Shown: piece after piece, positions 25,629-44,252 of the stretch | Layout of the letters: the number at the start of each line of letters is the position of its first letter | How positions within the stretch are numbered: position 1 is the first letter of the stretch | Assembly (NCBI RefSeq): GCF_022513635.1 | Contig: NZ_JAKWBL010000004.1 | Coordinates: forward strand, 620,001 to 684,000 | From: Paraniabella ginsengisoli | Lineage (GTDB): Bacteria; Bacteroidota; Bacteroidia; Chitinophagales; Chitinophagaceae | Length of the DNA stretch: 64,000 nucleotides | Direction of reading: 5' to 3' | The notes under the pieces: model-generated | Told to the model about the DNA's origin: nothing | Database searches by the model: none | What the model saw: only the letters and a program-made list of their open reading frames with translations | Program-made: the position numbers and the translations under genes

Positions 25629-25635
25629 CCGCATT

Positions 25636-27170: not shown

Positions 27171-27221
27171 CACACTTACGCGATGTATAAATTTCGTTTT
27201 AGGAATAAAATTTGCTTAAAT

Positions 27222-27254: not shown

Positions 27255-28435
27255 TAAAAATACCGTATAATGAAGCAATTTTTTTATTGTTGGCCTTCTT
27301 CATTTGTTATTCCTCATTGACGCAAGCCCAGGGGTTTGGCGGCGCTCGGCATAAAATGGCCATATTTACTCCGCTTTATATTGATGAAGCGTTTGATAAT
27401 GCGGGAAGTTATAAGTATTCTGGCAAGACCTTTCCTAAGCAATCGATAAATGGCTTGGAGTTTTATCATGGTGCGTCGCTTGCTATCGACTCTCTCAATA
27501 AATTAAGTATTCCTTTAGATGTTTACATTTATGACACAAAGTCAAAGAAGGAAACGCTTGAGCAGCAATTTAGCAAATGCGCTGCCGACGGTGTAGAGCT
27601 TATTATTGCTAATTGTTCTTTATCAGAACTGACAACCCTTGCAAGATTAGGTTTAGATAAAAAGATCACGGTGCTGAACGCTACTGTTCCAAACGATGCT
27701 AATACAACCAACAATCCATATTTCGTAGTGATGAATCCTACTATACAAACCCAGTTGGAAAGATTGTATAATTATATCAAAACAAAGTATCCAGGTAAGC
27801 AGATTACAGTTATTACAAAAAAGGCGCCTTCTGAAAAGTATATACGTTCTGTGTTTGAAACGCTAAACACCCATTATAAAAACGCAATCAACTTTAATTT
27901 CAGAGAAGTGAATGACGATATTGCGTTAAAGGCTTTGGGCACTACAACACAACCAACAGAAGCGGGTTTATATGTTATCGGCTCTTTAGATACTGAGTTT
28001 GGTAAAAAGATTTTAGCACAGTTTGCGCAGAGCAGTAAAAACTATGCCTCACTTACGTTAATCGGGATGCCAACATGGGAAAATATCGATCTCACAAAAA
28101 CTGATTATAAAGGTGTTGAAGTTATTTACAGCACACCGTTTTATAATGCCAGAACAGATGCGGCAAGCAGATATATAACCAGTTATTATAGTAAAAAAAT
28201 GTATGCGCGCCCAAGCGATTTGGTATTTAGAGCTTATGGCCTTACGTACAGGTTTGGGCATTTATTGAACCGCTACGGAAAAGATATCAACAACAAACTT
28301 GCCGGCACTGAATATCGAGCTTTTTTCGACATGGAAATCCAACCGGATTATCTAAATGGTAAGATAAGCCATTACGAAAACAAGAAGCTTTATTACTTAA
28401 AGTACTTTAATGGTGCTCTAAAGGCGGTGAACTAA
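27248..28435 (+). CDS. Periplasmic binding-protein-like (type I fold) receptor
   Basis: Secreted protein of 395 aa. After a signal peptide (AIFLLLAFFICYSSLTQAQ) the sequence follows the type I periplasmic binding fold of branched-chain amino-acid receptors: MAIFTPLYIDEAF, NGLEFYHGASLAIDSLNK, VDVYIYDTKS-like strand, VELIIANCSLSELTTLA, and VVMNPTIQTQLERLYNYIKTKYPGKQITVITKK. No transporter genes are adjacent, so it may act as a ligand-binding or lipoprotein-like envelope factor and not as an ABC receptor. It lacks a LysM domain that some relatives carry. Confidence 0.7.
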   Translation: MDLKIPYNEAIFLLLAFFICYSSLTQAQGFGGARHKMAIFTPLYIDEAFDNAGSYKYSGKTFPKQSINGLEFYHGASLAIDSLNKLSIPLDVYIYDTKSKKETLEQQFSKCAADGVELIIANCSLSELTTLARLGLDKKITVLNATVPNDANTTNNPYFVVMNPTIQTQLERLYNYIKTKYPGKQITVITKKAPSEKYIRSVFETLNTHYKNAINFNFREVNDDIALKALGTTTQPTEAGLYVIGSLDTEFGKKILAQFAQSSKNYASLTLIGMPTWENIDLTKTDYKGVEVIYSTPFYNARTDAASRYITSYYSKKMYARPSDLVFRAYGLTYRFGHLLNRYGKDINNKLAGTEYRAFFDMEIQPDYLNGKISHYENKKLYYLKYFNGALKAVN

Positions 28436-28436
28436 T

Positions 28437-29039
28437 TTATAGCTTAGCTTTCAGGTCGTCCAATATCATCTTTTGAGATGCAATTATTTTTTGTTGTGCC
28501 TCCTGTTTGGATTTATTTGCCGCTAATTTCTCTTCCAGTTCTTTTTGTATCTCTTCCAGATCTGCCAAAGAATTTTCTTCTCCGACAAGAATTCCTTCCT
28601 GCCTTTTTATTTCTACGATATCACCGCTACGTTTTACGTTTGCGGTCATCTTTTCTAAAAAAGATTTGCTTTTATTCAAAAGAGAAGCCGGATTGTCTGA
28701 AATGCCAGCGCCCTGCATAATCATGTAAACCGTTGTTTTTTTGCTGCCACGCCTTCCGTCTTCTTCAAACTTAAAATAATAATCAAGTTTGCTTTTGGTT
28801 ACCTCAGTCATTGTAGCATTTTCATACGTTATAAAACCTTTGCTTTTAGAGCTGGAGTATTGCTTGTCGGCAAATTTTGCTACAAAAGCGTTTTCAACAA
28901 TTTCCTCTGGATAGTCGTACACCATTACAATGGCAGGCTCTTCTGCTTTGCCGTATTTTACCTTTCCTTCAAATGCCTGTGCTGATGCATTTGCTGTCAA
29001 TATTGCCAACCCCGAAAAAATTGCCCATTGCTTAACCAT
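28437..29039 (-). CDS. Secreted protein, DUF4412-like
   Basis: 200 aa with signal peptide (MVKQWAIFSGLAILTANASAQA). Residues 22-~110 (FEGKVKYGKAEEPAIVMVYDY, KSKLDYYFKFEEDGRRGSKKTTVYMIMQ) resemble DUF4412 proteins, which bind or read out small envelope ligands. The C-terminal third is a Lys/Glu coiled coil (LADLEEIQKELEEKLAANKS..). Convergent with the preceding gene, with only one base between stops. Function unknown. Confidence 0.5.
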   Translation of the reverse strand: MVKQWAIFSGLAILTANASAQAFEGKVKYGKAEEPAIVMVYDYPEEIVENAFVAKFADKQYSSSKSKGFITYENATMTEVTKSKLDYYFKFEEDGRRGSKKTTVYMIMQGAGISDNPASLLNKSKSFLEKMTANVKRSGDIVEIKRQEGILVGEENSLADLEEIQKELEEKLAANKSKQEAQQKIIASQKMILDDLKAKL

Positions 29040-29112
29040 AAAAACATATTAGAGTTTAATGAATTGATCTTGCGCAAAGGTATATTAACTCTCTGTTTTA
29101 TTTTAAGTACTT

Positions 29113-29120
29113 TAAATTTG
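29113..29120 (+). promoter_or_regulatory. -7 box of the flippase gene
   Basis: TAAATTTG, 18 nt before the TTG start at 29139. Confidence 0.45.
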
Positions 29121-29138
29121 CACCAATAATTTTTTACA

Positions 29139-30652
29139 TTGAGTGGGATTAAGAAACTGGCAGGACAAACTATTTGGTATGGCGTAAGTTCGATTGCGGC
29201 AAGGTTTATTAACTATTTGCTTACACCTTACCTAACGTATAAATTTACGACAGGTGAATATGGTGAGATGAGCATTCTATATGCTTTTATCCCATTTATG
29301 AATGTTATTTTCACTTATGGAATGGAAACCGGTTTTTTCCGGTTCTCCCAAAATAGCGATAAAGACAAAGTGTATAGTACTACAAGCTTGTCTTTGATTT
29401 ACTCCACGCTGATACTTGCACTGTTATTAATTGCTTTTAATAAACCCCTTTCAGGTTTGCTGTCTGTTGCAGATAAGCCTGAATACTTAATGCTTGCAGC
29501 GGCCATTATTGCCCTGGACGCACTTACCACTATTCCTTTTGCAAAGCTAAGACAGGATGGACGTCCCCGAAAGTTTGCCTTTACAAAACTTACCGGTATT
29601 CTTGTAAATATTGCGGCTATCTATTTTTTCCTAAGCATTTGCCCACAACTTATTGATCAAGAGCCAGACCATGTGCTCAGTCATTTTTATGACAAAGATT
29701 GGGTGGTAGGTTATGTGTTACTAGCTAATCTCATTCAAAATATTATTGTATTTCTTATTTTATCGAAAGAATTCTGGGGCTTTAGGTTTAAGTTTAATAA
29801 AGCACTTTGGAAAGAAATGATGTTATACAGCCTTCCATTAATCATTGCAGGACTGGGGGCATGATAAATGAAACGGCTGATCGTATTATGCTGTTAAAAT
29901 GGTGGACGCCCGCAGCTGGTGGTAGCGATGCAGAATCCGCTGTAGGAATTTACTCAGCATGTTATAAATTATCAATTCTTATTACTTTAGGAGTTCAGGC
30001 ATTTAAAATGGGTGCTGAGCCATTCTTTTTTAATCAGGCTGCCAGTGATAATGCGCCTCGGATATATGCACGCGTTATGAAATTCTTTGTAATTACAGTT
30101 TGCCTGATGTTTTTATTCGTGGTGTTATATTTAGATATATGGAAGCAATTTATTCGTAATCCGGAAATGTGGGTAGGCTTAAAAGTAGTTCCTATACTCT
30201 TGCTGGCGAACATGTTTTTAGGCATTTATTACAATTTAAGCATCTGGTACAAGCTTGGAAATAAAACTATTTCCGGCGCATACATCACCATTATTGGGGC
30301 CTTGGTTACGGTTCTGATAAACTATATTTTTATTCCGCATTATGGATATGTGGCTTGCGCCTGGGCAACGTTTGCGTGCTATGGCATTATGATGGTTGTT
30401 TCCTATATCTGGGGCCAAAAAAATTATCGGATACCTTATGCCACCAATAAATTGTTGGCTTACATAATTGTAGCGGTTGTATGTTACTTTATACATTTTT
30501 ATATCATAAGCGCCTTTCCTTTAGCCTGGCTTAGTTATAGCCTTGCGACAGTACTGTTCGCCCTTTATTTTTTACTTATTATCAGAATAGAAAGAAAAGA
30601 ATTTGCACAGTTCCCTGTTATTGGCAAATATTTAAAAAAGCCGTTGCCATAA
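29139..30652 (+). CDS. Polysaccharide flippase-like MOP-family transporter (frame break at 29855-29859)
   Basis: Integral membrane protein of ~504 aa with 12-14 hydrophobic segments, of the oligosaccharidyl-lipid flippase/PST type. It begins SGIKKLAGQTIWYGVSSIAARFINYLLTPYL, the typical family opening. The start is a TTG. A 5-G run at 29855-29859 lacks one base; restoring it reads LPLIIAGLGGMINETADRIML, the conserved mid-protein motif. It probably flips lipid-linked sugar intermediates across the inner membrane; no glycosyltransferase genes surround it, so the polymer is unknown. Confidence 0.85.
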
Positions 30653-30815
30653 AATCCGCTAATAAGTATTAATTTTCCGTATGCTATTTCAACATCGTTT
30701 GTCGAATGAAAGAGCGCCCTTTAAGCATCATTGCATTCAAGCTACATATTGTTGAAGGGTAAAGTAAAATGGTACTGAATAATCGCAGCGAAGCTGCAAC
30801 TTAACAAACATACGA
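30653..30815 (+). promoter_or_regulatory. Leader of the GlxA-type regulator gene, with a GAA-loop hairpin
   Basis: GCAGC-GAA-GCTGC at 30785-30797, then an A-rich stretch and CATACGA before the GTG at 30816. The last ~35 nt match the leader of the SurA-like gene (47448-47477), which supports both chosen starts. Confidence 0.5.
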
Positions 30816-31790
30816 GTGAAAACTATTTACATTCTAGCGCCTGAACATGCAGTAATGCAGGCAGTGGCTGATCCTCAATATTGTTTTAACACCGTTAATG
30901 AATTTCTGCAGGTAAGTGGAAGGGATGCTCTTTCCATGTACAAGTGGTGGGTGCAAAAAGAGAAGTGCGATTCAGCGGGAATCAGTTTACTGTAACAGTA
31001 GACAAATTATTGAGTGACACCGGTGTCGCAGACCTGGTAATTGTTCCTGCGTTATTTGGAGATATGGGAAACGCCGTGACTGCTAATGCAAAAATTGCGG
31101 AATGGTTGATATGGCAATATAAAGAAGGCGCAGAAATAGCCTCGCTTTGTGTGGGTGCTTTTTTACTGGCTTCTACCGGTTTGCTAAATGGAAGAAAATG
31201 CAGCACCCATTGGGGATACATTAATACTTTTCGTGAAATGTTTCCCAATGTTATGATCCAGGATGGCAGCATTGTTACAGAACAGAACCGTATTTATACC
31301 AGCGGAGGAGCCACTTCCTATTGGAACTTATTGCTTCATTTAGTTGAAAAGTATACCGACCGCCAAATTGCTATTCTGGTATCTAAATATTTCGCAATTG
31401 ATATTGATCGAAGTAGCCAGTCTGCATTTGCAGTGTTTACGGCACAAAAAAGCCATAACGATGATGCAGTAAAAAAGGCACAAGAATACATCGAGAAAAT
31501 ATTGAAGACCGCTTAACCATCGACGACATTGCTGCATATGTTGCATTAGGAAGGCGCAGCCTGGAACGCAGGTTTAACATGCAACCAACAATTCTGTACT
31601 GGAATATATACAAAGAGTAAAGATAGAAGCGGCCAAAAAGAGTTTTGAAAGCAGTAGGAAAAATATAAATGAGGTAATGTACGACGTTGGATACACCGAT
31701 ACTAAAGCATTCAGAAGCACCTTTAAAAAGATAACGGGCCTTACACCTATTGAGTACAAAAACAAATACAATAAACTTGCAGTAGCCTGA
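30816..31790 (+). CDS. GlxA/FtrA-family transcriptional regulator (three frame breaks)
   Basis: DJ-1/PfpI-like domain fused to an AraC DNA-binding domain, ~325 aa. The start is GTG (VKTIYILAPEHAVMQAV). The DJ-1 part carries the nucleophile-elbow Cys in ASLCVGAFLLASTGLLNG. The AraC part has two helix-turn-helix units (LTIDDIAAYVALGRRSLERRF and INEVMYDVGYTDTKAFRSTFKKITGLTPIEYK). Single bases are missing at 30931-30933 (T run), 31496-31499 (A run) and ~31576. Three breaks in one gene could mean decay, but the regional rate of such errors makes artefact more likely. Effector and targets unknown. Confidence 0.85.
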
Positions 31791-31841
31791 TAAAAACAAA
31801 GCGGTGTATTTATTGGCATCCTTTTTTCTTAGCTACTTTTG

Positions 31842-32937
31842 ATGCAAATAGAAGTCGCAGATAAAGTAGTTAATATTTCTCCTCAAAAGCTTGTCAGTGC
31901 TTTGAACGATCCTGAAAAAAGTGCGAGGATCGTAAAACTTACTTATGTGAACGATAGCGATGAAGGAATCGTTCGCGTAAAGTCGGGTAAGTCTTTTTCT
32001 TATAAAAAATCTTCCAAAAAATAAAAGACGAAAAGACCCTGGCCCGCATCAAAGGCCTGGTAATTCCGCCGGCATGGCGGGATGTGTGGATCTGTAACCT
32101 GGAGAATGGCCATTTGCAATGTACCGGAATAGATGCGTTGGGTCGCAAACAATATCGCTACCACTCTTTATGGAATGCTTTACGAAAAGAAACTAAGTTT
32201 TACAGGTTGTTACAATTTGGAGAAGCTTTGGGAAACCTTCGCAAAAAATTGTCAGCGCATTTAGCTGAACGTAGTTTAAGCAAGCAAAAAGTTTTGGCAG
32301 CTGTTGTAAGCACAATGGATAAAACAGGCATTCGGGTAGGAAACAGCATGTACGAAAAACTGTATGGATCTTACGGGCTATCCACTTTTAAAGATCAGCA
32401 TATTAAAATTAATGGCAGTAACGTAGCGTTTAGCTTCAGGGGTAAAAAAGGCGTATATCAAAATATTTCAATGCAAAGCGCCCGTTTGGCAAAAATCATT
32501 AAGCAATGCAAGGAAATTCCTGGAAGAGAGTTATTTCAGTACCTAGATGAAGATGGACAAAGGCATTCAATAACAAGCGGCGATGTAAATGATTATATAA
32601 AAGAAATTTCTGGCGGCGAGTTCACTAGTAAAGATTTTAGAACCTGGACGGGTACTGTTGATTGCATTGTAAATTTTGCCAGAATTGGAGGTTTCGAAAC
32701 CAAAACCCAAATGAAAAAAATATGGTTGACGCTTTGGATTGCGTAGCTAAAACACTTGGTAATACAAGGGCGGTTTGTAAAAGCCATTATGTTCATCCGC
32801 TAATACTGAGTATGTATGAAGATACTCGTTTAAATAACTATCTTAAAAAACTTGATGCTACAAGCGCAGATGCAATATCGAAAACAGAACCACTCCTGTT
32901 AAAGATCCTAAAAAAAGAAACCATTCAATCTAAATGA
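31842..32937 (+). CDS. DNA topoisomerase IB, poxvirus/bacterial type (two frame breaks)
   Basis: Type IB topoisomerase, relaxing supercoils through a 3'-phosphotyrosine intermediate. Joined length ~365 aa. The N-terminal domain has GLVIPPAWRDVWIC and LQCTGIDALGRKQYRYH. The catalytic domain has RVGNSMYEKLYGSYGLSTF (Arg), FSFRGKKGV (Lys), DFRTWTGT (Arg) and CKSHYVHP with the nucleophile Tyr. Breaks lie in A runs at 32004-32009 and 32714-32720, one base short each. The ATG at 31842 is preferred over a TTG one codon earlier. Confidence 0.9.
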
Positions 32938-32942
32938 GAGTA

Positions 32943-33413
32943 CTAAGAAAGTAAGTTCTGGCGTAATAAAAATTCGAGTTGCTCGTTAGTAGTCATAAGC
33001 TTCTCGGTTAGCTCTTCCTGATTTTTGCTATTGTTATACAATTTTAAAGCATTTTCAATAGTAGTTCGAAGCTCATCTTCAGACCATGGTTTTTGAACGT
33101 ATTTATAAACAGAACCTTTATTAATAGCATCAATAACGGCATTAATATCTGTATAGCCCGTTAACAAAATACGAGGAACAGCAGGGTAATCTTTTATAAT
33201 TGATTCGAGAAATTCAATGCCCGTAGTTTCCGGCATACGCTGATCTGTTATAATAAGATGAATATTATTAGCCTTTAATATCTGCCTTCCCTCTTCAGCA
33301 GATGATGCCGTAAAAATTGTATAGGATCGTCTGAAAACCGCCCTGAAGGAGTTTAGATTATGGACTTCATCATCAACGTAAAGAATATTTTTATAAATAT
33401 TTTCTTCACCCAT
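32943..33413 (-). CDS. Response regulator, REC with C-terminal coiled-coil
   Basis: 156 aa: REC domain (~8-125) with ILYVDDEVHN, phosphoacceptor Asp in HLIITDQRMPETTG, LLTGYTD and KPWS, followed by a helical extension (KNQEELTEKLMTTNEQLEFLLRQ) with no DNA-binding domain. It is the closest relative of the REC part of the REC-kinase gene at 37458 (both YVDDE.N.L.SF...FRR and GYTDI.A..DAIN). Divergent from the ThiF gene with 74 nt between, so it shares the control region and probably belongs to the same system. Output is likely by protein contact. Confidence 0.9.
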   Translation of the reverse strand: MGEENIYKNILYVDDEVHNLNSFRAVFRRSYTIFTASSAEEGRQILKANNIHLIITDQRMPETTGIEFLESIIKDYPAVPRILLTGYTDINAVIDAINKGSVYKYVQKPWSEDELRTTIENALKLYNNSKNQEELTEKLMTTNEQLEFLLRQNLLS

Positions 33414-33487
33414 AAAAAAGCAAATATTGTTAAATTTCTGTTCTATATTTATGTCCTACAAAATTATAAAAAGAACAAAAACTAATT

Positions 33488-34591
33488 ATGCTCCTAGGCT
33501 ATAATGTAGGCACAGAATATTATAAAGGATATAAACCATCATTTTACCGGTTACAAGACAAAGGTGAATCGGGAAAACTTAAAGAGCTTTTATCACAAAC
33601 TCCAGCTATACAAATATACGATACAATTGAAAGTCAATTATCAGAACTGGCGAAAATAAATAATCCGCAAAAACAGCTTACTTCTAATGAGGTAACGGAT
33701 TTTATAAACGAATATAGAAATGGAGCTCCTTTAGACGAATGCGGCGTTTGGGTTTATTACCCATGGTCACAAAAATTGGTTCACTTGTTAGATGAAGAAG
33801 ATTTTATACAAGTACGGACCAGCAGAAACAATTATAAAATAAAGCCGGAAGAACTTCAGATATTAAGAAAAAAAAAGATAGGCATTATAGGTTTATCAGT
33901 TGGGCAATCGATTGCATTAACAATTGCGACAGAGAGAGTTTGTAATGAGTTACATTTAGCTGATTTTGATACAGTCGAGTTGGCAAATATGAACAGGTTG
34001 AGCAACTGCAATGTGTATAATCTGGGCGCATCAAAAGCAATTATCACAGCCCAAAAAATAGCTGAGTTGGATCCATATCTTATTGTAACCTGTTTTTCAG
34101 AAGGGATTACTGAAAGTAATATTGATGCATTTTTAGGAGAAGGCAGTACTCAGCTTGATATATTGGTAGAGGAATGTGATAGTATAGACGTTAAAATATT
34201 AAGCAGAATAAAAGCGCGTGAAAAGAAAATTCCGGTTGTGATGGATACTAACGATAGAGGAATGTTAGATGTTGAACGTTTTGATCTGGAGCCGGAACGG
34301 CCCATATTTCATGGTAATTTAAAAGAAGATATTGATTTGACAAGATTAAAAGATCTTACAAACAAAGAGAAATTACCGATGCTAGACGCGATGGTAAATC
34401 TTTCAGCTCTTTCTGAAAGGATGAAATATTCTTTAAGTGAGATGGGGAAAAGTATTAATACCTGGCCACAGTTAGCTTCCTCGGTAATGCTTGGAGGCGC
34501 AATGGTTACGGACACATGCAGGCGAATCTTATTATCGGAAACGACCAGCTCTGGAAGGTATTATATCGATTTTAGCGAATTAATTAAATAA
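33488..34591 (+). CDS. ThiF/HesA/MoeB-like E1 enzyme with unknown N-terminal domain
   Basis: 367 aa. Residues ~115-270 form the ThiF/MoeB fold: KKIGIIGLSVGQSIALTIA as nucleotide-binding loop, LHLADFDTVELANMNRLSNC (Asp and NMNR, matching DxDxVxxSNLNRQ), a following Lys in GASKAIITAQ, and IPVVMDTND. It lacks zinc-binding Cys pairs and no ubiquitin-like partner is nearby. The first ~110 residues and the C-terminal ~90 have no match I recognise. E1-like enzymes adenylate carboxylates. The next gene, a GNAT-like transferase, starts eight nt after this stop. Together they could make an amide or ester from an activated acid; this is inference. Confidence 0.75.
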   Translation: MLLGYNVGTEYYKGYKPSFYRLQDKGESGKLKELLSQTPAIQIYDTIESQLSELAKINNPQKQLTSNEVTDFINEYRNGAPLDECGVWVYYPWSQKLVHLLDEEDFIQVRTSRNNYKIKPEELQILRKKKIGIIGLSVGQSIALTIATERVCNELHLADFDTVELANMNRLSNCNVYNLGASKAIITAQKIAELDPYLIVTCFSEGITESNIDAFLGEGSTQLDILVEECDSIDVKILSRIKAREKKIPVVMDTNDRGMLDVERFDLEPERPIFHGNLKEDIDLTRLKDLTNKEKLPMLDAMVNLSALSERMKYSLSEMGKSINTWPQLASSVMLGGAMVTDTCRRILLSETTSSGRYYIDFSELIK

Positions 34592-34599
34592 GCGGTGGG

Positions 34600-35276
34600 G
34601 TGGAAATAGCTATCAGAGCCTTCAAAGCCATTATGGATGAAGAAACATGCCTCAAGTTCATTGATGGGCACAGGCGTCTTCTGGAATTTCATTTTGGTGT
34701 TGCAAAGATTACATCGAGTCACACCAGCTGGATGCATCACGAAAATACATTTGTAGTGGTAGCTGAAAGTCTGGATAGGACAAAAGTGTACGGCGGCGTA
34801 CGTGTTCAGGTGGCCGACGGTCAACTCCCATTGCCCATAGAAACCGCTATTGGCAGGTACGATCCTGCCATTCATCAGCAGGCCACGCCCGGTTCTTCCG
34901 AGATTTGCGGCCTCTGGAATTCGATGGAAGTGGCGGGTATGGGTATTGGCAGCATCTTCATGGCTCGCGTTGGTGTAGTGCTCGCCATGCAGCTGAACGT
35001 TGAGAAAGCATTTTTTCTTTGTGCCCCGGTTACCGTGAGGATTGGTAAAAGAATAGGAGGTGTTATTGAAACCTCCCTTGGAAATAAAGGAGACTTTTTT
35101 ATCCCAAAGACGATTTTGTGGCCACCGCAATGGTAATTAATGACTGCAAAACACTTGTCCATGCAGATGAAAAAGAGCGAACAAGGATTTTTGATTTGTT
35201 CAATAATCCTATACAACGCGTAATGGAGGCCGGACCAAAGGGCGAGCTTTTGGTGGATTATTTATTAAAGATATAA
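34600..35276 (+). CDS. GNAT-like acyltransferase, possible small-molecule synthase (frame break at 35106-35108)
   Basis: ~225 aa after restoring one A near 35107, which reads FFIPKDDFVATAMVINDCKTL and ends at 35276. The start is a GTG at 34600; no nearer ATG fits. Family evidence is moderate. VYGGVRVQ, LPIETAIG, EICGLWNSMEVAGMGIGSIFMARVG has a GNAT-type acyl-CoA loop (GMGIGS), and the layout recalls FeeM/LuxI-like N-acyl synthases. The substrate is unknown. Position between the E1-like gene and the sensor kinase suggests it makes or modifies the molecule sensed. Confidence 0.6.
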
Positions 35277-35292
35277 TGATGTGATGGTCCTA

Positions 35293-37438
35293 ATGCGTAT
35301 TTATTTCTTTCTTATTTGCATTTTGTATGCATGTGGAATGTTATATGGGCAGGTGCCTGTACAGGTTACCAAAGAGGCCGCACTTTATAACGTAGTTAAA
35401 AGCCACATCCAATATCTGGAAGATAAAAACAGCAGCTTCTCAATCAATGAAGTAGCGCAAGTTCCATTTTTAAATACTTCGTCAGATGTGCCGGGGTTTT
35501 TTATTTCCTCTTCTTCTTTTTGGGTAAAGTTTATTATTCAGAATGAAACAGAAGATCCGCATCTAATCATTAATCTGGAACATGCAACCATCGACAGGGC
35601 TGTCTTATATTACAAGGTTGGAGCATCAGGCGAATTTGATTCAACAGTTTTAACTGAAGCACAACCGTTCAGGAATCGTAAATACAACTATCAAACATAC
35701 ATGTTTGATGCGGAGATAAATAAAGGGGAGCAAAAAACTTTTTTCTTAAAGTGAGCGCTTCAGAACAACTGCTCATTCCAATTACGGTAGGCCATGTAGA
35801 AAAAACTTTCGAAAAACTTGCAACCAACGACCTGATATTTGGGCTATACATTGGGCTGATACTTGTAATGGTGTTATATAATTTGTTTCTCTATTTTTCT
35901 ACAAAAGACAAAAGTTATTTTTATTATGTACTCTACATGGTTTTTGTAGGAATAACACAAGCTATGTTGCAAGGGTATACCTTTCGGTTCCTCTGGCCTA
36001 ACCTTCCTATTCTAAATAACTATGCCGCTATCTTGGTTCCTTTTTTTAATGGAATTGCTGCGTTAGAATTTATACGAAATTTTTTAAACCTTAAAAGCGT
36101 ATCAAAACGGTTTAACAAAGGCATTTTCTGGTTTGAAGCGTTTTATTCTATTTCGTTGGTTTTGGGTATAATGGGTATGTTTAGGAGTGCGCAAATTGCT
36201 GTGCAATCAGCAGCTTTTTTCACTGCATTTTATGTACTGGGAATTTGCTCTTTACTTGCGTATAAAAAAATCCAAGGAGCAAAAACCTTGTTGATTGCAT
36301 GGTCTGTTTTTTTATGCAGTGTTATCATTTTTGTGCTAAGAAATGTGGGCATACTTCCCTATAACAATCTCACTTTTTATGCATTACAAATTGGATCAGC
36401 GATTGAAGCCGTGCTACTTTCCCTGGCGCTGGCAGACAGATCAACACCTACCGGCGAGAACAGGAGCTTGCAAGGAAAGAGGCTTTAGAGGCTTCTTTGG
36501 AAAACGAGCGTTTAGTTAGGGACCAAAACATAACGCTGGAAAGACAGGTTCATGAGCGTACACAGGAATTGGAAAAATCTAATGATAATTTAAATAATAC
36601 GCTTTCTCAATTAAAGAGCGCTCAAAGCAAGCTTGTAGAATCTGAAAAAATGGTATCGCTGGGCCAGCTTACGGCAGGTATCGCGCATGAGATCAATAAT
36701 CCAATAAATTTTGTTACCTCAAACGTTAAGCCTTTGGAGTTGGACATTACCGACTTACTTACAGTTATTAAAAAGTACGAAGAAATCGATACATCTAAAA
36801 ATGTAGATGATCAGCTATCATCAATTGAGGAGTATAAAAAGCAAATAGATATAAACTACATTAATGAAGAAATAAGGACTTTACTAAGTGGCATTAAAGA
36901 TGGCGCTCATCGCACTGCAGAAATAGTCAGCAACTTGAAAAATTTTGCCAGGATTGATGAGGCCAATGTAAAATTCGTTAATTTGAATCGCGGCTTACAA
37001 TCAACCTTACTGTTGGTAAAAAATTCATTCCCAAGGGATTTTATACTCAACAAAGAGTTTGGCGACATTCCTGATGTAGAATGTACCGCCGGTAAGATCA
37101 ACCAGGTTTTCATGAATATAATTACAAATGGTTTGCAATCAATTGAGGAACGACAAGCCACTAACCCCGGTGTTGGTATTTTATCCATTAAAACTTTTGA
37201 AGAGGATGGTAAAGTAAAAGTTTCTATAAAAGACAACGGAACAGGGATTGAAGAAAATATAAGGGAAAAGATATTTGAGCCCTTTTATACTACAAAACCG
37301 GTGGGGCAGGGAACGGGACTTGGAATGTCGATCGTAAAAGGGATTATAGACAGCCATAATGGGACCATAGAAGTCATTTCAAATTTTGGGGATGGTGCAG
37401 AATTTATCATAACTTTACCCATAAACTATTTAAACTGA
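35293..37438 (+). CDS. 7TMR-DISM sensor histidine kinase (two frame breaks)
   Basis: Sensor kinase of ~715 aa. Start MRIYFFLICILYACGM (signal peptide). Residues ~20-155 are the extracellular DISM domain (ISSSSFWVKFIIQNETEDPHLIINLEHATIDRAVLYY). Seven transmembrane helices follow (from LIFGLYIGLILVMVLYNLFLYF to IEAVLLSLALADR), then a coiled coil (LERQVHERTQELEKSNDNL) and the kinase core with LTAGIAHEINNPINF (His) and DNGTGIEENIREKIFEPFYTTKP. Bases are missing at 35748-35750 and ~36440. It follows the GNAT-like gene by 16 nt and precedes a response-regulator kinase, so ligand sensing coupled to those is plausible. Confidence 0.9.
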
Positions 37439-37457
37439 GAGCTTTCAACTTTGCTTT

Positions 37458-38549
37458 ATGACAATAATAAAAGTTCTATACGTCGATGATGAAGAAAATA
37501 ATTTAAGCTCTTTTAAAGCAAATTTTAGGAGGCTGTACGAAATATATACCGCTACTTCAGGTGCTGCCGCTTTGGATATTTTATCCCAAACCGACGTGCA
37601 TGTGGTTATATCTGATCAGCGGATGCCCGGCATGACAGGCGTTGAGCTTTTTAAGAAGATAAAAAAATTTAATCCTGAACCTATACGCATTTTACTTACA
37701 GGATATACAGATATAGAGGCATTGGTAGATGCGATAAATGACGGCGATATATACAGATATATTACTAAACCCTGGAATGATATAGAGTTGAACAACGGTA
37801 TACAAAACGCATATGACGTTTTTAAAACCAGAAGAGAATTAAAAGAAAAGCTTGCAGAGCTGCAAAAAACAAATGATGAGCTTAATCGATTCATTTATAG
37901 CATTTCACATGAGTTAAGAGCGCCTCTTGCGTCAGCGCTCGGCGTTATTAATTTAGCAAAACTGGATAATGTTTACAGCGATTCAGAAAAGGGCCACGAA
38001 TACTGGAACCTTATGGAAGAATGTTGTAACCGACTTGACTATAATATAACCAGTACACTACAGTATTACAAGAATAGCCGATATACCAATATTAAGGAAG
38101 AAGTACACTTTGAGAAATTAATTCAGGATTTAATAATTATACATAAGCTGGCAAATAATATCGACGACAAAATTAAATTTGAAGTGAGTATTGATCAGAC
38201 AGAAGTATTTCTTGGAGACATATTCAGAATAGAAATTATTTTGGGCAATCTTATTTCAAACGCGATCAAGTATCAAAAGCCAGATGAAGAAAATAAGCTA
38301 ATAAAAATAGATGTAAAAGTAAACCTGTTAGATGCAGTAATTACTATTGTAGACAATGGGTTAGGTATTTTAAACGATCATTTGAACCAAATATTTAATC
38401 AATTTTTCAGAGTTCATAATCAGAAAGGAACAGGATTGGGCTTATTTATTGTAAGAGAGGCATTGGCAAAGTTGGACGGTAAAATTTCGGTAGAATCAGT
38501 CGTGAATTCAGGAACTCAATTTACTTTACGTATACCTAATCAACGCTAG
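37458..38549 (+). CDS. Response regulator-histidine kinase hybrid (REC-HK)
   Basis: 363 aa, soluble, no transmembrane segment. REC domain at ~1-125: VLYVDDEENNLSSF, Asp in VHVVISDQRMPGMTG, ILLTGYTDIEALVDAIN, ITKPWND. A coiled coil leads to a HisKA domain with His in FIYSISHELRAPLASALG, then an HATPase with GNLISNAIKYQKP, VDNGLGILNDHLNQIF and GTGLGLFIVREAL. It can receive phosphate and pass it on, as a relay between the 7TM kinase and the following response regulators. 19 nt from the upstream stop. Confidence 0.92.
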   Translation: MTIIKVLYVDDEENNLSSFKANFRRLYEIYTATSGAAALDILSQTDVHVVISDQRMPGMTGVELFKKIKKFNPEPIRILLTGYTDIEALVDAINDGDIYRYITKPWNDIELNNGIQNAYDVFKTRRELKEKLAELQKTNDELNRFIYSISHELRAPLASALGVINLAKLDNVYSDSEKGHEYWNLMEECCNRLDYNITSTLQYYKNSRYTNIKEEVHFEKLIQDLIIIHKLANNIDDKIKFEVSIDQTEVFLGDIFRIEIILGNLISNAIKYQKPDEENKLIKIDVKVNLLDAVITIVDNGLGILNDHLNQIFNQFFRVHNQKGTGLGLFIVREALAKLDGKISVESVVNSGTQFTLRIPNQR

Positions 38550-38580
38550 TACGCACCAACAAATAACTCTAAACTCCGCA

Positions 38581-39003
38581 ATGCCACCTAAAGCCCCAAA
38601 GCCCAACTTATTAGTTATCATTGATGATAGTTCATTCGATTTAAGAATTAATTCGGGAATAGCAACTCATATAAAGGTCTTCACACAAATATTATGTTTC
38701 TCCTCAGCTGAAGAAGGGCTCGATTTTTTAGTAGAAAATCTTGATAACCCGCAAATATATCCGCATCTTATTTTATTAGACATTCAAATGCCTGAAATGG
38801 ACGGTTTTGAATTCATGAAACGATATGATAAATTTCCTGATAATTTTAAAAAAGGTAGTAATGTTGTTATGCTTTCCTCAACCGACGACTTGCAGGACAT
38901 TACGCGGGTCGATTCCAACAAGAATGTATTCAGGCTTTTAAAAAAGCCATTACAAATAGAGCAACTTAAGGCCATTGCAGAAGAATTATATCTTCTCGAT
39001 TAA
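38581..39003 (+). CDS. Single-domain response regulator
   Basis: 140-aa REC-only protein. LLVIIDDSSFDLRIN gives the acidic residues, HLILLDIQMPEMDGFEF the phosphoacceptor Asp, VVMLSSTDD the Thr/Ser switch, and LLKKPLQ the Lys. No output domain, so a shuttle or allosteric partner. Closely related to the next gene, showing a tandem duplication. Downstream of the REC-kinase by 31 nt and likely co-transcribed. Confidence 0.92.
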   Translation: MPPKAPKPNLLVIIDDSSFDLRINSGIATHIKVFTQILCFSSAEEGLDFLVENLDNPQIYPHLILLDIQMPEMDGFEFMKRYDKFPDNFKKGSNVVMLSSTDDLQDITRVDSNKNVFRLLKKPLQIEQLKAIAEELYLLD

Positions 39004-39083
39004 TTTGGGATTTGGTAAAATAAGCAGCAAAGTGTATTTTGTACGTTGAAAAAATTTGTCGAATTTCTGTCGAAAGCGAAATA

Positions 39084-39503
39084 ATGCATTCCAAAAATTA
39101 TCCCCGTTATTTTTTAATAATTATTGATGATAGTGCTTTCGATCGAAAAATAAATTCAATCGTCGCAGACCGAACGAAACTATTTAAACAAATAGTAACA
39201 TTTTCCTCAGCCGAGGATGCGCTCGATTTTTTAACAGAGAATAGAAGTAATGCAGAAGTATTTCCACAAGTGCTTTTGCTGGACATTCAAATGCCCGGAT
39301 TAGATGGATTTGAATTTATAGTTGAGTATGAAAGATTTCCAGATTACTTCAAGGAACAGAGCCATATCATCATGCTTTCTTCAACCGATGATTTACGGGA
39401 TATAACACGTGCCGAGTCAAATAAAAATGTTATTACCTTATTAAAGAAACCTTTGCAGTTCGAACAATTTTCAGCTTTGATCAAAGAGCTGCATACCTTT
39501 TAA
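39084..39503 (+). CDS. Single-domain response regulator (tandem paralogue)
   Basis: 139 aa from the ATG at 39084 (MHSKNYPRYFLIIIDDSAFDRKIN); the frame is open to 39039 but has no family similarity there. Phosphoacceptor Asp in QVLLLDIQMPGLDGFEF, IIMLSSTDDLRDITR, TLLKKPLQ. About half of the residues match the preceding regulator, including the SAEDALDFL segment. Last gene of the signalling run. Confidence 0.92.
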   Translation: MHSKNYPRYFLIIIDDSAFDRKINSIVADRTKLFKQIVTFSSAEDALDFLTENRSNAEVFPQVLLLDIQMPGLDGFEFIVEYERFPDYFKEQSHIIMLSSTDDLRDITRAESNKNVITLLKKPLQFEQFSALIKELHTF

Positions 39504-39526
39504 ACCAGTTATAAATTTCGAAACTA

Positions 39527-40791
39527 ATGATAAAAATAAAAGTCTTTTTGTGCAGTTTTCTAATATCTTTTATGCACGTTGCCGGACAAAGTGTTAGCGT
39601 ACCAATTGCAGGTAACACATGGAGCTCTGCTAAAGAAAGCAGAAGCCTTGCAAAAACAGGAATAAGAGAATGGCAAAATAAAGAGCAAACATTTACAACA
39701 TATATACGTGTAGCAACACCAGGCACGCTAAAGCTTTCTATAGATGCTGCATCTCCGTCTGGTAATGCAACGCTTGGTATTACTGCCTTGTCAAAAACCC
39801 ATAAAGTAGAGATCAATGCTCAAAAAGAGTATGAAGTTGGGGAGTGGATGATAAAAGATTCTGGTTACATTGCTTTTACATTTTCAGGGATTGCCAAGGA
39901 AGGCTGTTGTTTTCCCGACATAAATAGTTTAAAGTTATCAGGCTCTGCAATAAATGAGCAGACATCATTTGTTAAAAATAATGAAGGCAATTTTTTTTAT
40001 TGGGGACGCCGAGGCCCTTCTACTCATTTAAATTATCAGTTACCGCAGCATGTGGATGTTGAGTGGTTTTATAATGAAGTAACTGTACCCGAAGGCAATG
40101 ACATTATTGGTTCTTATTTTATGGCAAATGGATTTGGAGAAGGATATTTTGGAATGCAGGTAAATTCCGATACAGAAAGACGCATACTGTTTTCAGTATG
40201 GAGCCCTTTACTACCGACAATCCAAAAGAAATTCCAGACGAGCAAAAAATTAAATTATTAAAAAAGGGAAATGATGTAAACACAGGAGAATTTGGCGGCG
40301 AAGGTTCTGGCGGGCAGAGCTTTCTGCGATATAACTGGAAAGCGGGTACAACACAGAAATTTTTATTGCACGGAATTCCAGATGGGGCAGATCATACCAT
40401 TTACACGGCCTATTTTTTTGACAACGAGCAAAAAACATGGAGATTGATTGCCAGCTTCAGGCGCCCAAAGAAATCGACCTATCTCACACGCCTGCATTCT
40501 TTTCTTGAAAACTTTAATCCAGAACAGGGAAATATTGATAGAAAAGTGCTGTTTTCCAATCAGTGGGTAAAAGATACAAAGGGAGAATGGCACGAACTTA
40601 CCAAAGCAAAATTTAGTGCAGATAATACTGCAAGAATCGGCTACAGAAAAGATTTTGAAGGCGGTGCAGATAAGAAAAACTTTTACCTGCATGCGTTTGG
40701 GTTTTTTAAACAGCAAACACCTATGGGTAAATCGCTTGAACGTGAGTCAATTAATACGCCACCAGCTATTGATTTCGCTTCTTTAAAATAG
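39527..40791 (+). CDS. Secreted DUF5077/DUF3472 protein (frame break at 40207-40209)
   Basis: ~421 aa. Signal peptide (MIKIKVFLCSFLISFMHVAGQ), then a DUF5077-like beta-sandwich (~25-140: VPIAGNTWSSAKE, TYIRVATPGTLKLSIDA) and a DUF3472 domain (HLNYQLPQHVDVEWFYNEVTVPEG, SYFMANGFGEGYFGMQVNS, FFGGEG-like FGGEGSGGQSFLRYNW, RLIASFRRPK). One T is missing at 40207-40209; restored it reads ILFSVWSPFTTDNP. Such proteins are thought to bind or cut carbohydrates, and none is characterised as far as I know. Confidence 0.8.
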
Positions 40792-40830
40792 AATTTGCAA
40801 CATTGTTGCTTTTTTGTATTTTGCAGCCGC

Positions 40831-41228
40831 ATGAAAAACAGATTTAATTGGGATGCATTGGGAATTACCACGTCCATTCTGTGCGCCATTCATTGTGCCG
40901 TATTGCCTTTGTTTTTGGTTGCACTTCCGCTTTGAATTAATATAATAGACAACCATGCTTTTGAAGTAGGTATGATTGCGCTGGCTTTTGTAATAGGATG
41001 TTACGCATTATGGCATGGGTACAAAGGGCATCATCATAGCAAAACTCCTTTGTTCCTCTTTATCGCTGGTATTTTTTTCTGATATTAAAGCAGGTTTTTT
41101 TACAATATCACATTGTTTTATTGGTTCCCGCTGTGATACTGATTGTAGCAGCGCATTTGATAAACTATCGCTACTGCCGGGTGCATAATCATGCACATGA
41201 TACAGACTGTAATCACGATCATTATTAA
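40831..41228 (+). pseudogene. MerC-domain protein with in-frame stop and frame break
   Basis: Small membrane protein of ~132 aa in the undamaged state. MKNRFNWDALGITTSILCAIHCAVLPLF has the MerC signature CxxxHC; a histidine-rich tail (HNHAHDTDCNHDHY) follows. A TGA stop lies in frame at 40933-40935 where GGA would read LLGINII, and one T is missing in a 7-T run at 41072-41078. The nonsense change is a substitution, unlike the one-base deletions elsewhere, so real inactivation is possible. MerC proteins carry mercury or other metals into the cytoplasm, but homologues here are often metal-homeostasis genes. Confidence 0.65.
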
Positions 41229-41257
41229 TCTTTAGCACTTATTTTTCTAAAAAGGAA

Positions 41258-41696
41258 ATGAAAAACATACAGATGAAACAGCTAATAATTTTCTCATTTC
41301 TTATTACAATATCTGTAATTGGTTTTGGGCAATCGAAAACAGAGGCGGCCATCCATTCCATACTTCAAAAACAAACCGATGCGTGGAACAAAGGCGATAT
41401 CAATACATTTATGCAGACATATTGGAAAAACGATTCACTGGTATTTGTAGGTAAAAATGGAGTAACCTATGGCTGGCAAAATACATTGGACAACTACAAA
41501 AAAATTATCCTGACAAGGCCACAATGGGGCAATTGCGATTTGATATTATTAAAATACAACCACTTTCGTCAAATATTTACAATGTAATTGGCAAATGGCA
41601 TCTTACCCGTACAATTGGTGATTTGCAGGGGCATTACACTTTACTGATAAAAAAATCGGGAAACAGTGGCTAATTGTTCAGGACCACTCAAGCTGA
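41258..41696 (+). CDS. Secreted NTF2-like (DUF4440/SnoaL) protein (two frame breaks)
   Basis: ~146 aa. Signal peptide (MKQLIIFSFLITISVIGFGQ) and the cone-shaped NTF2-like fold: IHSILQKQTDAWNKGDINTFMQTYWKNDSLVFVGKNGVTYGWQNTLDNYKK. The second half reads only after restoring one G at 41526-41529 and one A at 41649-41655: LRFDIIKIQPLS, GKWHLTRTIGDLQGHYTLL, QWLIVQDHSS. It probably binds or hydrolyses a small molecule in the periplasm. Start may be 41273 (MKQL) or 41258. Confidence 0.8.
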
Positions 41697-41697
41697 C

Positions 41698-41802
41698 GTC
41701 AATGGTGAATGGGTGAATAGTCAATAATTAATCAATAAATAAACAGCAGCGTGCATTCGTAATACGTCAATCGTAATTCACTACTCACTGTTCACCATTG
41801 AC
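41698..41802. terminator. Long inverted repeat between convergent genes
   Basis: GTCAATGGTGAA (41698-41709) and TTCACCATTGAC (41791-41802), 12-bp perfect arms 81 nt apart, built from the simple words seen between many genes here. It may act as a bidirectional transcription barrier. Confidence 0.4.
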
Positions 41803-42032
41803 TACTTTACTTCTTCAAAATCAATATATTCTCCTTCTTTTTGTTTAGGTGCTTCTTTTGTGGGCTCGTTAAAAGCAGACTTGGAGTTTTGCGCTTCCCG
41901 CTGTTCAGACATATTTTTAAATTGTCGCCTTACCTGACGGGTTGTTTTATAAACAGGGAGAATTATCTTCACTAGCAAGTTGTAAAAAAACCAGGCAAAA
42001 ATCATTAACAGAATAAAGCCAATTGTACTCAT
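41802..42032 (-). CDS. DUF4834-family small membrane protein
   Basis: 76 aa: one transmembrane helix (TIGFILLMIFAWFFYNLLVKIILPVY), then a basic cytoplasmic tail (KTTRQVRRQFKNMSEQREAQ) ending in an acidic EGEYIDFEEVK. This is the plan of the small DUF4834 proteins found in many Bacteroidota, whose function is unknown. Divergent from rimP. Confidence 0.75.
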   Translation of the reverse strand: MSTIGFILLMIFAWFFYNLLVKIILPVYKTTRQVRRQFKNMSEQREAQNSKSAFNEPTKEAPKQKEGEYIDFEEVK

Positions 42033-42143
42033 AATAAAAACCTTTTTCTATACTTGTAAACGGACTGACAGCAAAAATGTTTTAACCAAAACCGCCTCAA
42101 TAATAAATTTAAAGTTAAAGCTACACTTTTATATAAAAAATCA

Positions 42144-42151
42144 TAACTTTG
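42144..42151 (+). promoter_or_regulatory. -7 box of the rimP-nusA-infB operon
   Basis: TAACTTTG fits TAnnTTTG exactly, 18 nt before the stem-loop that precedes rimP. Confidence 0.55.
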
Positions 42152-42169
42152 CGCAAGATTTTGAGAAAA

Positions 42170-42188
42170 GGGAACGAGTGACGTTCCC
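42170..42188 (+). promoter_or_regulatory. Stem-loop in the rimP leader
   Basis: GGGAACG, loop AGTGA, CGTTCCC: perfect 7-bp stem, followed by TTATTTATTTG and the rimP ATG at 42214. Could be an attenuator or a 5'-end stabiliser; the T-rich stretch is weak for a terminator. Confidence 0.55.
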
Positions 42189-42213
42189 TTATTTATTTGT
42201 CGGAATATATAAC

Positions 42214-42678
42214 ATGGAAGCTGTTATTCAAAAAGTAGAAAAGGAAATTCTGGAGATCCTGGCGGAAAACCCGGATCATTTTTTAGTTGAAATTAAAATT
42301 AAGCCTACCAATAATATCAGGGTTTTTATTGATGGGGATAAAGGTGTAGGTATTGGCGATCTTGTTAAATATAATCGCAACCTGCATAAAGTGTTAGAAG
42401 AAGCTGGTTTCTTTCCCGAAGGTGATTTTTCACTTGAGGTTTCGTCGCCGGGTTTAGGCGAGCCGCTCAAAATGCGCCGCCAGTATCAAAAGAACATTGA
42501 TAGATTTGTGGAGATCATAAAAGAAGATGGCAGCAAAATAGAAGGGAAACTATTACAGGTAAATGATTCGGAAATCATAGTAGAAGAAACAAAAGGAAAA
42601 GGAAAAAAGGCGGAAACAATAACACATACCGTTTCTTTTCAGGATATAAAATCAACTCAAATTCAAATTAAATTTTAA
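42214..42678 (+). CDS. rimP: Ribosome maturation factor RimP
   Basis: 154 aa. Required for 30S subunit maturation. The ATG at 42214 (MEAVIQKVEKEILEILAENPD) is preferred to the open frame from 42178, which reads through the leader. The N-terminal domain ends with LEVSSPGLGEPLKMRRQYQKNIDR, the family signature (EVSSPGL). The C-terminal SH3-like domain shows GSKIEGKLLQVND and the last strand FQDIKSTQIQIKF. First gene of rimP-nusA-infB. Confidence 0.95.
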   Translation: MEAVIQKVEKEILEILAENPDHFLVEIKIKPTNNIRVFIDGDKGVGIGDLVKYNRNLHKVLEEAGFFPEGDFSLEVSSPGLGEPLKMRRQYQKNIDRFVEIIKEDGSKIEGKLLQVNDSEIIVEETKGKGKKAETITHTVSFQDIKSTQIQIKF

Positions 42679-42821
42679 ACATGCTTCCCTGCCCAGGCTG
42701 GGAAAGCGCAATAATTAATTATGAAATGAGCCATTATATCTTTCATTTTTACAAATGCAATGATATTTTGGTGAATTACATGTGACAACAAAAACAACAA
42801 AAAATAAACACATGAATTGCT

Positions 42822-44068
42822 ATGGCAAGTATTAATCTTATAGAAGCGTTCCAGGATTTTAAAGACGCTGAAAATATTGACAGGCCCACAATGATGAAGG
42901 TGGTAGAGGATGTTTTTAAAACATTACTCCGTAAAAAGTATGGCACCGATGATAATTTTGACGTTATTGTAAATGCCGAAAAAGGTGATCTTGAAATAGT
43001 GCGCCACCGTACTATTGTTGAAGATGGAGAAGTGGAAGACCCTTTAGCACAAGTTGCTTACTCTGAAGCGATCAAGCTGGAGCCCGACTATGAAGTAGGA
43101 GAAGATCTTTACGAAGAAATTGATCTGGTAGATTTTGGGCGCCGGGCTATTTTAGCCGCTAAGCAGACGCTTGCCGCCGTATAAGCGATTTGAAGAAAAA
43201 TGTACTTGCCAAAAAATATGAAGATAGAATCGGAGAGATCATAAGCGCAGAGGTTTATCAGGTTTGGAAAAAAGAAATTTTATTGCTTGATGAAGAAGGC
43301 AACGAACTTATCCTTCCTAAAAGTGAGCAAATACCACAGGATTATTTTAAAAAAGGTGAAAACATTCGTGCCGTTGTAACACGTGTTGATCTGAAAAATA
43401 ATAACCCCGTAATTATTTTATCAAGAACTTCTCCTGATTTTCTGGCCAAATTATTGGAAATTGAAGTACCGGAAATTTTTGATGGTTTAATCATCATCAA
43501 AAAAATAGTACGTGAACCAGGAGAAAGAGCAAAAGTAGCCGTTGAATCTTATGATGACAGGATTGATCCGGTTGGGGCTTGTGTGGGTATGAAAGGTAGC
43601 CGTATTCACGGTATTGTGAGAGAATTGAAGAACGAAAATATTGATGTTATTAACTGGACAAGCAACCTTCAGCTCTTAATTCAAAGGTCACTTACGCCAG
43701 CTAAAATAACCAGCATGAGCGTGGATTCGGAAGGAAAGCATGCAAGTATCTTTTTGAAACCCGACCAGGTGTCGCTGGCTATTGGCAAACGAGGCGCTAA
43801 TATTAAACTTGCTTCCGAACTTACCGGTTTTGAACTGGATGTTTATAGAGATAACGAAGAGGAAGAAGAAGAGTTTGATGTGGATCTTGAAGAATTTAGT
43901 GATGAAATTGACGAATGGGTTATTGACGCATTGAAAAAGATCGGTTGCGATACAGCACGTAGCGTAATGAGAATGACACCGTCTGAGTTAGAGAAAAGAG
44001 CCGATTTAGAAAAAGAAACTGTAGAAGATATAAGAAGAATATTAAAGGAAGAATTGGAAAGGGAATAA
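42822..44068 (+). CDS. nusA: Transcription termination/antitermination factor NusA (frame break at ~43178)
   Basis: 415 aa after joining. The N-terminal RNA polymerase-binding domain (MASINLIEAFQDFKDAENID to ~120) runs into the S1 domain after the break: one base missing near 43178, restored it reads TLAARISDLKKNVLAKKYEDRIGEI. KH1 carries VGACVGMKGSRIHGIVREL, KH2 carries SLAIGKRGANIKLASELTG. The C-terminus has a short acidic stretch and a helical repeat (DALKKIGCDTARSVMRMTPSELE). Binds polymerase in pausing and antitermination; follows rimP in the usual order. Confidence 0.95.
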
Positions 44069-44252
44069 GCCGTGTTGAAGGGGAAAAATATTGTGTGGAA
44101 TGGTAAATTAAAAATTGTCTTCACAAAAGGCAATTGGAGAGAACCCGACGCGAAATCTTAGATCTTAAATAAATAAACAGATCTAAAGAGTTTCATCAAA
44201 GGCTACCCTTGGCCAATAAGATTAAAATAAGAAATACAAGGGAAATTTATAT
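44069..44252 (+). other. Gap between nusA and infB
   Basis: 184 nt, purine-rich, no gene, no good promoter box and no stable hairpin seen. Confidence 0.5.

Follow-up and report, generated by a model that had tools for sequence, protein, structure and literature searches.

A predicted N-acyl amino acid synthase paired with a 7TMR-DISM sensor kinase suggests a self-signalling module in Bacteroidota

Why would a bacterium keep an adenylating enzyme and an acyltransferase in one gene cluster with a membrane sensor kinase? The question is raised by positions 32943–39503 of a 64,000-nucleotide stretch of Paraniabella ginsengisoli DNA (the window; assembly GCF_022513635.1, contig NZ_JAKWBL010000004.1, forward-strand positions 620,001 to 684,000). 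There, genes for a ThiF-like protein, a GNAT-like protein, a 7TMR-DISM histidine kinase, a receiver (REC)–kinase and two REC proteins lie on the plus strand, and a further receiver gene (RECn) diverges from them on the minus strand. A preliminary description, made from the sequence alone, proposed that the first two genes make or modify a small amide-type molecule that the sensor reads. Our analysis favours a synthase–sensor circuit, in which the enzyme pair would make and cyclise an N-acyl amino acid and the adjacent kinase would read the product; we place the probability of this reading at roughly 0.52.

The acyltransferase and sensor kinase genes recur as a pair

Relatives were collected with a ThiF scan of public genomes, from which the best 80 of 196 were taken, and further loci were found by ThiF, kinase or acyltransferase. 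Of 125 loci examined, 6 duplicates and 12 loci without an intact kinase open reading frame (ORF) were removed, leaving 107 distinct loci. Among the 12, L048, L076, L090, L099, L104, L112 and L165 end at contig edges, L056 and L120 belong to a single genome in which the frames are broken, L174 and L175 are further pieces of the genome that contains the window, and L075 is a true exception that is discussed below. The acyltransferase is present in 106 of the 107 loci, the only one without it being L093, in which the contig starts within ThiF; the REC-kinase is present in 101, RECn in 65 and a terminal REC gene in 78. The order ThiF–acyltransferase–kinase–REC-kinase was found in 69 loci, and the first two genes are swapped in 24. 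In all 106 loci that hold both genes with the kinase ORF intact, acyltransferase and kinase are co-directional, and therefore the recurrence of this gene set is not a matter of chance. Nor does it reflect general synteny, because the flanks are not conserved: no flanking family is found under more than 9 of the 45 genus labels, some of which overlap, and the most frequent one occurs at 32 loci, 30 of them in Chitinophaga. The flanking-gene survey revealed no additional conserved member of the module.

Co-occurrence was assessed in two surveys that did not start from linkage, one of 99 relatives and one of 296 genomes sampled phylum-wide. Module members supplied the profiles, and the kinase-match cut was set after the gap in E values had been seen; the size of that gap argues against an artefact. 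Among the 99 relatives, the acyltransferase profile matched 33 genomes, and the kinase was found at E ≤ 3.1e-149 in the identical 33, with a best match of 1.3e-84 in the other 66. Acyltransferase and kinase lie together in all 33, in two of them (G001 and G048) across contig edges. ThiF was found at E < 1e-100 in 29 of these 33 genomes and in none outside them; with weaker generic matches included, the count rises to 51 of 99. In the phylum-wide survey, the acyltransferase was found in 12 genomes and the kinase, at E ≤ 4.7e-130, in the identical 12; the kinase search returned 31 matches at E ≤ 1e-60, and those beyond the 12 start at 8.7e-89 and mostly cover the kinase part only. ThiF at E ≤ 1e-40 was found in 11 of the 12 and in no other of the 296. 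Linkage was seen in all ten of the 12 that were retrieved, the remaining two being the window's genome and G030. If the two 12-of-296 sets were independent, their identity would have p of about 1e-21, a value that is overstated, the genomes being related. Presence is patchy within family and genus, and the genus-mate G008 lacks all three genes. Every genome that has a kinase of this subfamily, in both surveys, thus has it paired with a synthase gene. The link between GNAT-like gene and kinase suspected in the preliminary description is borne out in these relatives, with the correction that ThiF is dispensable.

Predicted chemistry of the enzyme pair

The GNAT-like gene (34600..35276, plus strand; ACYLTRANSFERASE) had been assigned to the acyltransferases in the preliminary description. 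Neither the window protein nor six relatives reached the cut-off of any Pfam family, and a profile search returned no PDB chain. The fold was predicted with a model of L034, the homologue from Niabella aurantiaca (53-row alignment; predicted local distance difference test (pLDDT) 92.8). In Foldseek, the best matches of this model are BjaI (E 5.4e-7) and MesI, both coenzyme A (CoA)-dependent acyl-homoserine-lactone (AHL) synthases, followed by FeeM, which accounts for six chains at a target-normalised template modelling score (TM-score) of 0.70–0.74; TofI and RpaI fall within the top nine. All of the top six matches are AHL or N-acyl-amino-acid synthases, and the assignment to acyltransferases is upheld by this predicted fold. 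Passages of a report on the tyrazolone pathway likewise compare its acyltransferase, TyzA, with FeeM and BjaI (PMC10404671). Residues were counted by aligned column, since literal motif patterns missed many rows: Glu101 of the acyltransferase is kept in 104/104 sequences, with the literal pattern found in 84/104. On the strength of the model, the protein is probably an N-acyl amino acid synthase of the LuxI/FeeM fold.

The ThiF-like gene (33488..34591, plus strand) has an intact frame and encodes a 367-residue E1-like adenylating enzyme that matches Pfam ThiF at 2.9e-15 and the NCBIfam 'Rv1355c family' (NF005901) at 9e-138. This second match spans profile positions 9–339 of 722, the ThiF half only; since no more than half of the profile is present, its score of 460.6 bits does not reach the cut-off of 476 set for the whole protein. 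The protein thus corresponds to the N-terminal half of TrzS and has no nitroreductase half. Homologues encoded on 13 actinobacterial plasmids share 41–48% identity with it. The closest Foldseek matches of its model (pLDDT 90.5) are AclA, ThiF and TcdA, and TcdA is the only sequence match in the PDB; TcdA cyclises a carboxylate after adenylating it. The NxNR motif, Lys183 and Cys230–Asp231 are invariant in 44/44 aligned relatives, and Asp231 is kept in 112/112 sequences (literal E-x-C-D pattern, 102/112). Asp231, whose counterparts in two actinobacterial homologues stand at 202 and 212, would by its position correspond to D217, a residue that has been tested in TrzS. As described in passages of PMC12856293, TrzS cyclises N-acyl tryptophan with ATP in vitro and then desaturates it to N-acyl tryptazolone; oxazolones are reactive towards acid and methanol. 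By homology, the window's ThiF is likely a TrzS-type oxazolone cyclase, and N-acylation of an amino acid followed by ThiF-mediated oxazolone closure is, in our judgement, a probable course for the chemistry.

The clustering of enzyme and signalling genes would also fit a reading in which the enzymes act on the signalling proteins themselves, with a REC protein or kinase being acylated, or ThiF activating a peptide or protein, and the phosphorelay being tuned as a result. In line with this, protein acetyltransferases are found among the acyltransferase's Foldseek matches, and those of the cyclase go on to a ubiquitin-like-protein (Ubl)-activating E1 (6h78, rank 9) and to PaaA and MccB, enzymes of ribosomally synthesized and post-translationally modified peptides. 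However, the listed operon ORFs, which comprise those of at least 60 residues, showed no gene for a Ubl or a precursor peptide, shorter peptides falling outside the list; two CxxC pairs within the first 380 residues were found in 0/112 ThiF sequences; the acyltransferase's six best matches are small-molecule synthases of the two kinds named above; and the ThiF protein is a TrzS homologue. We regard modification of the signalling proteins as very unlikely. A classical E1 or sulfur-carrier role for ThiF was rejected on the absence of paired CxxC motifs and the homology to TrzS, the Ubl-activating E1 among the fold matches notwithstanding.

Tailoring enzymes vary around one sensor subfamily

Three tailoring states accompany the one sensor subfamily: ThiF without an oxidase, the window's type, at 67 loci; ThiF with an oxidase at 33, fused to it in 32; and no ThiF at five. 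Seven loci had been scored as lacking ThiF, but L166 and L197 are cut by contig ends, which leaves five. One of these, L164, is likewise at the edge of a contig, but its genome gave no ThiF match. Between acyltransferase and kinase, L161 carries a gene for a class I S-adenosylmethionine (SAM) methyltransferase (10459–11241) and L195 one for an ICMT-family methyltransferase (7706–8368); no methyltransferase was seen at that place in L162 or L163. On this small sample of two, the methyltransferases could both cap the same carboxylate that ThiF is predicted to close. Because the acyltransferase stays with the kinase when ThiF is absent, the constant pair is acyltransferase and sensor, and ThiF is optional. 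The proposal of an amide-type molecule made by the first two genes survives in its chemistry, which the TrzS-type ThiF and the acyltransferase fold sharpen to a probable oxazolone, with the correction that the constant enzyme is the acyltransferase alone.

A hidden oxidase serving the short form was considered and rejected: counting duplicates, 72 of 73 loci had none in their flanks, which extend to at most 10 kb and are frequently shorter where a contig ends. Nor was a close homologue of the oxidase found in the window's genome, G000, in a search with three positive controls. That genome does encode a generic nitroreductase about 85 kb away (L174, 8302–8898; 29 bits to the oxidase profile, Pfam 4.9e-17), and oxidase help from elsewhere, for example from this protein, is possible. 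As judged from its genes, the window's module appears to be a variant without the desaturation step. In L171 (7251–9368), ThiF has 706 residues and a C-terminal part that scores 28 bits to the oxidase profile without a Pfam family; this second domain may be degenerate or different.

Tailoring type follows the trees of the acyltransferase and of the kinase alike (104 rows; L093, L166 and L197 left out), with 12 changes, where 100 shuffles for each tree gave no fewer than 26 and 27. Because the agreement is the same for both proteins, it does not separate the readings weighed below.

Sensor kinase and receiver proteins

The sensor gene (35281..37438, plus strand) encodes DISMED2, seven-transmembrane (7TM), HisKA and HATPase regions, and the H-[ED]-x-NNP box is present in 104/104 orthologues examined. 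It is followed by a 363-residue REC-HisKA-HATPase protein (37458..38549, plus strand), a second kinase or relay, in whose family the REC Asp and the HisKA His are each kept in 99/99 sequences (literal patterns, 80/99 and 55/99). Two stand-alone receivers complete the plus-strand genes, REC1 (38581..39003, 140 residues) and REC2 (39039..39503). RECn (32943..33413, minus strand), a stand-alone receiver of 156 residues with the phospho-acceptor Asp motif, lies on the strand opposite the kinase in 64 of 68 copies. The window copies of the kinases and receivers carry their motifs. Because REC1 and REC2 both align to a single REC gene of the relative L111, REC2 appears to be a local duplicate of REC1 that lies outside the conserved module; the branching output that had been read from the duplicated receivers is thus no property of the module.

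Above the Pfam cut-offs, the module proteins contain ThiF, 7TMR-DISM, kinase and REC domains only. No DNA-binding output domain was found among them, and no LuxR-type domain, in a search confined to the module. The best NCBIfam match of RECn is the receiver part of NosR-type cyclic di-GMP phosphodiesterases; it has no Pfam domain besides the receiver, and the catalytic domain is absent. The nearest full-length kinase outside the subfamily, at 33% identity, is found in L217 (genome G225, 4774–10237), where it adjoins a gene of the RPE65/carotenoid-oxygenase family (PF03055, 8.5e-30) and a REC-kinase-like ORF. This may be a further case in which a 7TM kinase is paired with an enzyme producing a small hydrophobic compound.

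A candidate synthase–sensor circuit

From the gene content, linkage, co-occurrence, predicted folds and cyclase family observed here, we infer a substrate, a product, its export, ligand binding and a flow of phosphate as follows. The GNAT-like protein would make an N-acyl amino acid by acylating the amino group of its amino acid substrate, with acyl-CoA as the probable donor. ThiF would then adenylate the carboxylate with ATP, and closure of the amide oxygen on it would yield a 5(4H)-oxazolone. Since the module has no flavin oxidase, the ring would be saturated here, provided that none from outside the module takes part, and relatives with the fused oxidase would yield an unsaturated azolone. 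The product would exit the cytoplasm by diffusion or a carrier and bind the DISMED2/7TM part of the adjacent kinase, from which phosphate would pass to the REC-kinase and the stand-alone REC proteins. Because the module encodes no DNA-binding output, the REC proteins would act through protein contact. That the sensor reads the module's own product is suggested by the pairing of the genes, and for this part of the scheme we consider the odds even. A wider view, which we hold tentatively and below even odds, is that N-acyl amino acids with interchangeable carboxylate caps serve cell–cell signalling across Bacteroidota and that one 7TMR-DISM subfamily reads them all, with cap swaps giving lineages private dialects. 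The caps would be the ring closed by ThiF, the ring closed and desaturated by ThiF and oxidase, and possibly the products of ICMT or SAM methylation.

The main rival is cue-controlled biosynthesis, in which the kinase reads an outside signal such as a sugar, metal or stress. The relay would then turn on production of an oxazolone or N-acyl amino acid whose use is that of a membrane lipid or antimicrobial and not that of a ligand. Regulators commonly adjoin the genes of biosynthetic clusters, and, according to the title of PMC8544897, the DISM-type sensor SagS answers glucose-6-phosphate, a ligand that is not a self product. Oxazolones have no proven role, and stress physiology is discussed by the authors in passages of PMC12856293. 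Against this rival, one sensor subfamily is kept across the 45 genus labels and through changing tailoring enzymes, and the lack of a DNA-binding domain in the module proteins leaves a direct local switch of transcription without an evident agent. Cue-controlled production is possible but doubtful in our estimate.

Several observations weigh against the synthase–sensor circuit. Linkage also fits an outside-cue sensor that controls synthesis, and no exporter gene was seen in the module. In Dyadobacter flavalbus, L075 (9890–11878) contains ThiF and a divergent acyltransferase with no such kinase module within 21 kb; the enzymes may thus be of use without the kinase, as the cue-controlled reading would also allow. 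The partial correlation of acyltransferase and sensor distances is 0.277 (reached by 0/300 permutations) against 0.272 for the kinase domain, and so, measured as distance correlation beyond other genes, the sensor part shows no excess of specific co-evolution with the acyltransferase. In the Foldseek results, ordinary GNATs interleave with AHL synthases from rank 7 on (AAC(6')-Ib, E 3.7e-6), and the small GNAT 1xeb has a target-normalised TM-score of 0.78–0.80, above that of FeeM; the acyltransferase's substrate is therefore not fixed by fold alone. Its match to the TrzA-like neighbour of Rhodococcus TrzS is weak (hhalign probability 25%, E 7.6e-4). Finally, passages of PMC12856293 state that tryptazolones are more abundant inside cells.

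Relation to known systems

The closest biosynthetic parallel is TrzAS (Rv1356c–Rv1355c) of Mycobacterium and Rhodococcus, which shares the ThiF cyclase family and an adjacent acyltransferase of LuxI/FeeM-like fold. The window's module differs in lacking the oxidase half, in having an acyltransferase barely alike in sequence, and in its 7TM kinase, in place of which TrzAS has cyclic di-GMP gene neighbours. In passages of their report, the TrzAS authors note that oxazolones resemble signals and that cyclic di-GMP genes adjoin; they name signalling as one possible role and treat the matter as a major unresolved question (PMC12856293). The tyrazolone pathways TyzABC (M. tuberculosis) and OxzAB (Pseudoalteromonas rubra) follow the same acyltransferase–ThiF logic, with a ThiF that passages of PMC12856293 place in a different subcluster; the passages of PMC10404671 report no sensor kinase. 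Acyltransferase–ThiF–nitroreductase clusters are also described, in passages of PMC12479983, for N-acyl tyrosine makers including Stieleria. Two plasmid loci extend the picture in Actinomycetota. On a Rhodococcus qingshengii plasmid (L222, 4853–9055), TrzS has as neighbours a GGDEF gene and, on the opposite strand, a TrzA-like gene, an arrangement that recalls the cyclic di-GMP neighbours in M. tuberculosis; on a Streptomyces plasmid (L220, 7917–9715), an oxidase-less TrzS-type ThiF gene is followed by a GNAT gene whose product does not match the Bacteroidota acyltransferase profile.

The circuit layout has precedents of its own. In LuxM/LuxN, CqsA/CqsS, LqsA/LqsS and RpfF/RpfC, a synthase gene stands beside genes for a membrane histidine kinase and receivers; the candidate circuit of the module differs from these systems in synthase family, predicted chemistry and the 7TMR-DISM sensor. 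LuxI and BjaI share the predicted acyltransferase fold, whereas the module's acyltransferase has no Pfam match and is partnered by a membrane kinase in place of a LuxR-type protein. RetS, LadS and SagS have the same DISMED2, 7TM and histidine kinase architecture, and the module's kinase differs from them by its pairing with a synthase gene.

Among the matches listed in a search of the open literature without preprints, by titles and abstract openings, none concerned a 7TM kinase in a cluster for an oxazolone or N-acyl amino acid. In word searches, 'kinase' is absent from PMC12479983 and PMC10404671; in PMC12856293, 'histidine kinase', 'Chitinophaga' and 'Pedobacter' are absent, and 'Bacteroid' occurs once, in the references. 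The preliminary description knew of no described system of this composition. This stands, within the literature covered, for the combination with the kinase and fails for the biosynthetic half, which was already described in Actinomycetota and Pseudomonadota. What appears new is the combination, enzyme chemistry and circuit layout each having precedents, and we know of no precedent for joining this chemistry to this layout. On the sequence evidence, the module is a likely candidate for a new form of bacterial self-signalling. A module that joins a predicted synthase to one sensor subfamily offers a direct test, in harmless environmental bacteria, of whether acyl-oxazolones act as signals. If the synthase–sensor circuit is correct, Bacteroidota would gain a signalling system based on a small molecule whose receptor is identified; to our knowledge, none is well established in the phylum.

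Reading frames at the locus

The order, strands and coordinates of the genes are as first described, with the qualification that two frames are broken. The 7TM kinase, taken earlier as a single open frame, is divided into three ORFs (35281–35754, 35751–36488 and 36497–37438), and the GNAT-like ORF is cut short at 35136, with the conserved tail of the protein continuing in another frame to about 35276. Compared with the intact relative L111 (genome G003), whose kinase orthologue has 719 residues, the window lacks a single base at each of 35097, 35746 and 36440; the difference near 35097 breaks the acyltransferase, and the other two break the kinase.

These three frame-changing differences across two genes could reflect strain-specific decay, with acyltransferase and kinase being pseudogenes in this genome, a reading compatible with any of those above. 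Frames at the module are broken in two genus-mates as well, G002 and G012. However, all three differences are single missing bases, and neighbouring split genes also show one-base differences from L111, for example at 25908 and 29852. The broken cases are in genomes of 92, 72 and 83% completeness, and the frames are open in 13 other genus-mates (in G001 cut by contig edges), two of which are less complete (G013, 74%; G016, 90%). We consider decay unlikely. Because one-base differences also occur where neighbouring genes are split, the broken frames suggest an assembly error rather than decay.

A mobile island was considered and rejected, as positions 25004–44895 align piecewise to L111 around the module. 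Across 25606–44895, many one-base differences from L111 change the frame, also beyond the module, and other genes in this region are possibly split wrongly.

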